From Oxalobacter sp. OttesenSCG-928-P03 (GTDB lineage Bacteria; Pseudomonadota; Gammaproteobacteria; Burkholderiales; Burkholderiaceae_D): DNA of 64,000 nucleotides. This document shows positions 33,456-35,880 of the stretch, in pieces. The first letter of the stretch is position 1. Every line of letters begins with the position of its first letter. The translations under genes were made by a program, and so were the position numbers. Under the pieces are notes generated by a model. It had not been told where the DNA came from. It saw nothing but the letters and a program-made list of their open reading frames with translations, and made no database searches. The stretch is taken from NCBI GenBank assembly GCA_030269625.1, contig JAJDFZ010000003.1:1-64000 (forward strand), in the 5' to 3' direction.

Positions 33456-34259
33456 TTAGCTGTCTTTCAGGCCCAGCACATCCTGCATGTCAAAGAGGCC
33501 GGTTGTCTTGTCTGCAAGAAAACGCGCCGCCCTCAGGCTCCCAAGCGCATAGGACACGCGGCTGGCTGATTTATGGGTGATTTCAATGCGTTCACCGATA
33601 CCGGCAAAGAGAACCGTATGATCGCCAATGATGTCCCCCCCCCTTACTGTTGCAAAGCCAATCGTCGATGGATCGCGTTCGCCTGTGATGCCTTCGCGTG
33701 TAAACGTGCCGCATTCCCGCAGATCGCGGCCCAGCGCATCTGCGATGACTTCTCCCATTTTGAGTGCCGTGCCGGAAGGGGCGTCGATTTTGTGGCGGTG
33801 ATGTGCCTCGATAATCTCGATGTCGTAACCCTGCGAGAAATTCCTGGCGGCCAGTTCCAGGAGCTTCATCGTGACATTGACGCCAACGCTCATGTTCGGG
33901 GCAAAGACAATGGCAATTTTTTTTACAGCCTCCGCGATCCGTGCCTTGCCTGCATCGTCAAAACCGGTTGTGCCGATAATCATCCTGATGCCATGCTGCT
34001 CACAGTAAGCCAGATGATCCAGCGTGCCTTCCGGCCGGGTAAAGTCGATCAGGTATTCGGCATCTTTCAGGCTTTTTGAGATATCGGATTCGATCAGAAT
34101 ACCGGTTTGCCTGCCGAGAAAAAGGCCGGCATCGTTACCGATACTCGCCGAACCGGCAACATCCAGTGCACCCACCAGGGTGGCGTCTTCAGCATCCAGA
34201 ACCGTTTCGATCAGCATGCGTCCCATGCGGCCGCTGGCTCCTGCAATGGCGATTTTCAT
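33456..34259 (-). CDS. dapB: 4-hydroxy-tetrahydrodipicolinate reductase
   Basis: [58 protein letters not shown]. Confidence 0.97.
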
Positions 34260-34274
34260 TGAATTCATTTCCTT

Positions 34275-35324
34275 TTACTGTGGTTGCATCAATTCGTGGA
34301 GCTGCATGGTTGAGTTGGGCGCCGCCCTGAAGTCTTCATCCGGCTCATCATCGTCCCGTGTAACCGTCGTTGCCGCTCTTCTTGGTTCGGCCTGCCTGGC
34401 CGGTTCCGGCGTATAAGTTCGAACAGGTTCAGCCCCGGTTGTCGCAGAAGTGGTTTCTGTTGTCCGGGGTGAAACAGGTTCGCTTTCCTGGCGATCCGTC
34501 TCGACCGGAGCCGCGCGATACTCGTCTGTTTGCACCGGTTGTGCTTCGGTTGTGGATGGTGCTGTTTCCCGGGGTTCGGAACGATAGGTTTCCACCGGGG
34601 TTGTTTCGGTGGTATCTGTTACCGGTTCGCCGCGATAGCCTTCATGCGACTCGGGGTCTGTCTCAGGCGTTTCGGTTGTTGCCGGTGTGGCGTCAGGGGC
34701 CAACGTTGTTGTGGTATCGGTTGAAACCGGAACAACAGCATCCTGTTCAGCGGCGGCTTTTTCGTCGCTGTCTTTTACTTTCTTCTTGGGCGCCGGTCCG
34801 GCGATGGCCTCAAGGTATTGTGTTTCATCCGGCAGCGGATCATTGACAATGCGTGTGACACGATTGTCTTCGAAATAGAGGATGACGCGATTGTTGGTGA
34901 TTTTGCCGCTCGGCTTTTGCAGGCGGAAAATATAGTCCCAGCGTGCGGCATGGAAAATGTCGGTCAGAAGCGGGGTTCCCAAGGCAAAACGAACCTGTTC
35001 CTTGGTCATGCCAGGCTGTACTTTTTCCAGCATTTCCTGCGAGACAAAATTGCCCTGCTGGATATCGATCCGGTATGGGGTAATGATATTGAGCAGCTTC
35101 TGCACGCCGGTGGCTTCGGCAGAATCCAGTGCCGGATTCCGGGCCAGTTCGCTGAAAGAGGTTTGTCCTGCGCTGTCAGATGAGATGGGGACGCCTTTGC
35201 CCGCATTTTCCTGAACCGGCTCGCCGAGGAAGGTTTTTTTCGCCGTGACACCGCAACCGGTAAGCAGAAAGGCCGCCACAAGCAGGGCTGACAGGGGCCA
35301 TTTTGAAGACAATGTTGTGTGCAT
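34275..35324 (-). CDS. bamE: Outer membrane assembly lipoprotein BamE with N-terminal linker and long repetitive C-terminal extension
   Basis: Lipobox LLTGCG; BamE core ITPYRIDIQQGNFVSQEMLEKVQPGMTKEQVRFALGTPLLTDIFHAARWDYIF; divergent from fur. Confidence 0.9.
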   Translation of the reverse strand: MHTTLSSKWPLSALLVAAFLLTGCGVTAKKTFLGEPVQENAGKGVPISSDSAGQTSFSELARNPALDSAEATGVQKLLNIITPYRIDIQQGNFVSQEMLEKVQPGMTKEQVRFALGTPLLTDIFHAARWDYIFRLQKPSGKITNNRVILYFEDNRVTRIVNDPLPDETQYLEAIAGPAPKKKVKDSDEKAAAEQDAVVPVSTDTTTTLAPDATPATTETPETDPESHEGYRGEPVTDTTETTPVETYRSEPRETAPSTTEAQPVQTDEYRAAPVETDRQESEPVSPRTTETTSATTGAEPVRTYTPEPARQAEPRRAATTVTRDDDEPDEDFRAAPNSTMQLHELMQPQ

Positions 35325-35433: not shown

Positions 35434-35880
35434 ATGAGCAAAAACATTACTGAAAACAATAATCCGGCTGAACTCAAGGCCAGTGGACTCAAGGCGACTC
35501 AGCCCCGGCTGAAAATTCTGGAGATTTTTCAGCAGAATCCGGTTCGTCATTTGAGTGCGGAAGATATTTACCGCCTGCTGGTAGCGGATAATCTGGAAAT
35601 CGGCCTGGCGACAGTATATCGGGTGCTGACGCAGTTTGAGCAGGCGGGCCTTCTGACGCGCAATCATTTTGAGGCGGGCAAGGCCGTCTATGAGCTTAAT
35701 GAAGGGACGCATCACGATCATATCGTCTGCCTGAAATGCGGCAGGGTTGAGGAATTTCATGATGACAAGATAGAAAAACGTCAGCGTGAAATGGCGCGGG
35801 AACATGGTTTTGAAATGGTGGATCATACGCTGGCACTCTATGGCTACTGCGTTCCTGCATGTAATAAGCCAAAAAGCTAG
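35434..35880 (+). CDS. fur: Ferric uptake regulator
   Basis: [36 protein letters not shown]...[19 protein letters not shown]...[16 protein letters not shown]. Confidence 0.96.

Follow-up and report, generated by a model that had tools for sequence, protein, structure and literature searches.

BamE (SmpA, OmlA; Pfam PF04355), a lipoprotein of the BAM complex, is known from structures of the E. coli and N. gonorrhoeae proteins as a chain of about 90-140 amino acids with short ends. The P. aeruginosa protein (BamE/OmlA, PDB 7jrk, with a similar chain in 9pxg) likewise has a core followed by a tail; its deposited chains are 154-176 residues long, and 7jrk models 88 residues of a 154-residue chain. 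Disordered docking segments are also found elsewhere in BAM, on BamC (its "lasso") and on BamF of Caulobacter, but these are N-terminal and are not carried by BamE (PMC3359395). Caulobacter possesses a link between BAM and the cell wall, which is made by Pal through an OmpA-like domain and not by BamE (PMC2797634). It is still an open question how BAM is positioned with respect to peptidoglycan and how chaperones supply it (PMC9242858, PMC13067283). Among wall-anchored lipoproteins in general, Lpp uses a C-terminal lysine for its covalent attachment to peptidoglycan.

We describe here a BamE with a much longer C-terminus, from Oxalobacter sp. OttesenSCG-928-P03. The window, that is, the whole stretch of DNA that was analysed, comprises 64,000 nucleotides, and its bamE gene occupies positions 34275..35324 of the minus strand (349 amino acids, ATG start at 35324, TAA stop at 34275-34277). 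The divergent fur gene lies upstream (35434..35880, plus strand) and dapB downstream (33456..34268, minus strand), with its start beyond the bamE stop. This fur-bamE-dapB neighbourhood is common to most of the relatives that we fetched, and both neighbours adjoin bamE in 10 of 12 loci of the genus, the remaining two being cut off or rearranged.

By every feature tested the protein is a BamE; lipobox, fold and core sequence all resemble those of the known proteins. The signal peptide and lipobox LTGC (35253..35324, minus strand) put the lipidated cysteine at residue 24, which is invariant in the genus alignment; the +2 residue is Gly and not Asp, from which sorting to the outer membrane is predicted. 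A linker of 53 amino acids (35094..35252), with low pLDDT over most of its length, separates this cysteine from the core; a first-pass annotation had put it at about 45, and linkers of a comparable kind are common in the family. The core and its C-terminal helix (residues 78-174; 34803..35093) include the match to PF04355 (34848-35054), which scores 94 bits against a curated cut-off of 23.2 bits (90.4 bits as protein) and is the single one in the source genome, whose assembly is 62% complete. The AlphaFold2 model, of modest confidence, has the BamE fold of two helices and a three-stranded sheet in this region, and its Foldseek matches are BamE structures. As the BamE residues are kept in the core, its contacts with BamA and BamD are most likely those of other BamE proteins, and membership of the BAM complex, by way of BamA POTRA5 and BamD, would follow from homology. 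A domain search of the protein returned PF04355 as its sole Pfam domain, and the OmpA-like domain (PF00691) that characterises proteins of the Pal/OmpA type is absent.

To this core is added a tail of about 175 amino acids (182 if one counts from LPDE, the end of the core), rich in Thr (19%), Glu (13%), Pro (13%) and Ala (12%) and net acidic, with 17 positive and 37 negative residues; its main, fast-evolving part lies at 34332..34802 and is followed by a conserved tip. The P. aeruginosa tail is far shorter, and we saw in it no similarity to this tip. In the AlphaFold2 model the tail is without secondary structure, at a pLDDT of about 45-55. The input alignment held 7 sequences (the window protein and related loci) and low confidence is expected from such a shallow alignment, but the composition, together with the fact that the tail of P. 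aeruginosa BamE is not modelled, points in the same direction, and we regard the tail as predicted to be disordered. The first-pass annotation had already recognised a BamE homologue with a long disordered C-terminal extension, and both the 94-bit match and the unfolded tail of the model bear this out; its estimate of about 150 residues was too low. It was right about the junction, PKKKVKDSDEK, which we find at residues 179-189, from 34790 downwards, as fits its interval 34275-34795, with the tail in frame.

That annotation had also spoken of degenerate repeats, and here one has to distinguish between protein and DNA. At the amino-acid level a pattern does exist: each of the five aromatic residues in the tail falls within the motif [YF]xxxP, namely YRGEP (34623..34637), YRSEP (34572..34586), YRAAP (34506..34520), YTPEP (34401..34415), all on the minus strand, and FRAAP, which was equalled in none of 20,000 shuffles, for a motif picked post hoc after inspection of the tail. 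At the DNA level, Tandem Repeats Finder detected no tandem repeat in the bamE gene of the window. Two congeners do carry true DNA repeats in bamE, an 18-bp unit present in 17 copies in one (L005) and a perfect 24-bp repeat in the other (L012), whose gene runs off the end of its contig within the repeat and is hence incomplete. An open frame of 158 codons also runs antisense to the tail in the window (34370-34846, plus strand); it is probably a by-product of the tail's composition.

The genus sample consists of 13 genomes (oxalyl-CoA decarboxylase, TIGR03254, a marker that points to Oxalobacter, was matched in all 13, in 12 of them above the cut-off), which provided 11 complete bamE genes and the truncated L012 as a twelfth. 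All 11 encode a long tail, of 145-257 amino acids, and the comparison of orthologues that the first-pass annotation had proposed reveals that the repeats, too, vary between congeners. A frameshift or an assembly error at the junction of core and tail, which it had considered, is excluded by the identical in-frame architecture of the 11 genes, those from the single-contig genomes G001 and G012 among them. Its view of known BamE proteins as small and single-domain is partly correct: tails of 12-75 amino acids are usual in the family, the P. aeruginosa chains are longer, and extra modules occur elsewhere. In other genera the median tail is 37 amino acids (119 complete fetched genes, a set enriched for long frames). 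Tails of 140 amino acids or more were found in at least two of about 64 loci from other genera of the family, where some of the long frames were read, and in 11 of 142 other genomes of the order sample (about 8%), where the genomes read were those whose open frame had a length of about 259 amino acids or more. Long BamE tails are thus neither unique to the genus nor general in Burkholderiales, and the possibility, also raised in the annotation, that they are common across the order does not hold.

In a tree of the BamE core the genus is monophyletic (97/89) and splits into two clades (99/88 and 99/94), clade A with the protein of the window and clade B; g41, the nearest genus sampled, has tails of 29-52 amino acids. 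A single gain of the tail in the ancestor of the genus is the simplest reading, from a core tree built on just 99 columns. A search of largely open-access literature turned up no description of a BamE with such a tail. We consider the long-tailed form to be genuine and shared by the genus, a variant of a known protein for which the role proposed below is credible. In clade B, L006, L008, L010 and L011 have in addition a very long linker between cysteine and core, of 171-189 amino acids.

The tip of the tail deserves separate consideration, since its last 20 or so residues are conserved within each clade, a feature that the first-pass annotation had overlooked. In clade A (the window, L002, L003, L007 and L009) the protein ends in FRAAPNSTMQLHELMQPQ or close variants, encoded in the window at 34278..34331 (minus strand), and in clade B (L004, L005, L006, L008, L010 and L011) in FEPISxPxRxxxMxPxSPNxxxIGNIQ or close variants; the two end peptides are not clearly homologous. 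In all 11 complete proteins the final residue is Gln (MQPQ or GNIQ). Each peptide stays constant while tail length and repeats vary, as in the gene with 17 copies of the 18-bp unit. Pairwise pN/pS over the terminal codons, 18 in clade A and 27 in clade B, is 0-0.32, against 0.05-0.27 in the core and 0.39-0.87 in the middle of the tail in most pairs (mostly 0.5-0.8 within the clade of the window). Across these 11 complete genes, some of which are closely related, the last 18-27 residues are therefore about as constrained as the core, and the selection is purifying and acts on the protein.

Seen from the middle of the tail, one could suppose that the whole extension is neutral low-complexity growth, which expanding repeats produced at the 3' end of the gene and which is tolerated but has no function. 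This would agree with its fast evolution (pN/pS mostly 0.5-0.87), with its widely varying length and with the perfect or near-perfect DNA repeats of some congeners. We nevertheless find it unlikely, given that the end is core-like in both clades, that in the subclade L006/L008/L010 the middle is constrained as well (0.12-0.17), so that there the entire tail is, and that none of the 11 complete genes has lost its tail.

It is far less probable still, to the point where we give it very little credence, that the 3' end is conserved on account of signals in the DNA or RNA which serve dapB (a ribosome binding site, or coupling) and not on account of the peptide. The dapB start does lie within tens of bases of bamE, and some clade B genes have a bamE stop that overlaps an ATG. 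Yet synonymous sites at the terminus are roughly as free to vary as those of the core (terminal pS is 0.38-1.02, one near-identical pair excepted, of the same order as core pS), which places the constraint on the peptide and not on the DNA and makes such signals an unlikely cause. Moreover, the AAAGGA of the window is positioned past the bamE stop, and G007 has kept an intact peptide with an integrase gene in the place of dapB, although this insertion may be recent.

The clade A peptide is matched in no other protein of the source genome, and beyond chance matches neither peptide was found in other proteins of the family sample. The weak family-wide matches to the clade A peptide were rejected as chance, the cases read being EDFRAAPASVAKMKEL within a ferredoxin-NADP reductase-like enzyme, and so were those to the clade B peptide, of which the ones read (L209, L210 and L211) lie in frames that overlap larger ORFs on the opposite strand, an ORF that resembles secD in L209 and L210. 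No known motif was matched, and AlphaFold2 predicted no fold for the peptide, two results that weigh against the docking role proposed below.

A constantly present, disordered and fast-evolving spacer with a conserved tip is what one would expect of a tether that ends in a docking peptide, and this combination suggests to us that the end peptide binds something in the cell envelope. The reading that we prefer, and hold to be somewhat probable, is that the tail is a flexible tether of BAM with a terminal docking peptide. The core would sit on BamA and BamD as usual, as homology indicates, and the tail would work as a fishing line, with the end peptide scanning the space beneath and through the wall until it docks, most likely on peptidoglycan or on a wall-bound protein and less likely on SurA; docking would then hold BAM near the wall, or draw the partner to the site of assembly. 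We estimate from chain length that a disordered chain of 175 residues could reach into and past the wall. It is possible that the tail spans the periplasm or binds peptidoglycan, as the first-pass annotation had imagined.

Our ranking of the partners, the wall or a wall-bound protein first and SurA second, is a guess that draws on four published results: purified E. coli BamE binds peptidoglycan (PMC9242858), the wall shields a tag on the C-terminus of BamE in E. coli (PMC7918090), Pal has the role described above in Caulobacter (PMC2797634), and a BamE-SurA contact was suggested by AF2 and HDX (PMC13067283). Against our reading stands the result that no cross-link of BamE itself to peptidoglycan was seen within E. 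coli cells (PMC9242858). A covalent, Lpp-like link was rejected, for the C-terminal lysine is absent from all 11 complete proteins of the genus, which end in glutamine.

A strictly C-terminal conserved peptide could also be read as a mark by which periplasmic proteases or quality control recognise BamE and set its turnover. Proteases of the Prc or DegP type read C-terminal peptides on disordered tails, and a peptide placed as this one is would suit them. The termini MQPQ and GNIQ do not, however, have the usual terminal hydrophobic residue, and we think this explanation improbable.

One may further ask whether the tail replaces another BAM lipoprotein, for example the disordered BamD-binding lasso of BamC, an idea that has in its favour that BamC and the alphaproteobacterial BamF act through disordered N-terminal segments (PMC3359395). 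None of the 13 genomes of the genus, however, lacks BamC (near full length in 12, a fragment in one), and we reject its replacement, a hypothesis which we find hardly believable. BamD is of normal length in the 10 of 13 genomes where it was found. The normal size of BamC and BamD also rules out for these two a general growth of BAM lipoproteins; of the subunits checked, BamE alone is extended. If the tether with a docking peptide is the right reading, its putative functional part of about 20 residues would make the role easy to probe, and such a built-in tether, with a short, conserved and removable end peptide, would provide a simple handle on the partner, or a bait for it.

The other long-tailed BamE proteins of betaproteobacteria are built in a comparable manner, from a core, a long low-complexity linker and a terminal module, but their modules differ from the Oxalobacter end peptide. 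In L058 and L181, from other genera of the family and of the order, the tail ends in a Cds6_C/NTF2-like domain recognised by Pfam, and by eye the same is true of L060 and L180; the protein of the window (P0001), L008 and L011 have no Cds6_C domain. L173, L188 and L192 end in a helix-like DEPGYFERMLEKIGF, and L156, L176 and L177 carry repeated PKRSVGERFMRLIGF motifs. These tails look like separate gains. It is tempting to see in the BamE C-terminus a general docking port on which different lineages hang different modules by disordered tethers, the Oxalobacter peptide being one that links BAM to a wall or chaperone partner new to BAM; we offer this only tentatively, and with more doubt than belief. 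A comparison of the end modules across lineages could reveal what BAM needs in its vicinity.

Several minor observations were made in the same set of loci. Short amphipathic helix-like motifs, such as SWWQKLKGMFG, PSLWQRLVAWFGG and DEPGYFERMLEKIGF, at times repeated, are present in many BamE tails of betaproteobacteria, among them L156, L173, L176, L177, L179, L188 and L192, with short versions in L035, L084, L093, L100 and L101, and possibly serve for contact with the membrane or with BAM. In G007, the place immediately after bamE that dapB would normally take is occupied by an integrase gene and foreign-looking genes (L104:3240-4676); no tRNA was found there, and the junction between bamE and dapB may be a site of insertion. 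Three congeners (G006, G005 and G007; L014, L015 and L016, respectively) encode a second protein in which a BamE-like N-terminal domain is joined to an apparent OmpA-like C-terminal part. Finally, adjacent small proteins with a weak BamE domain are encoded at 13.8-16.2 kb of contig C26 of G006 and at 5.9-8.3 kb of contig C5 of G007 (L025, L028 and L030).
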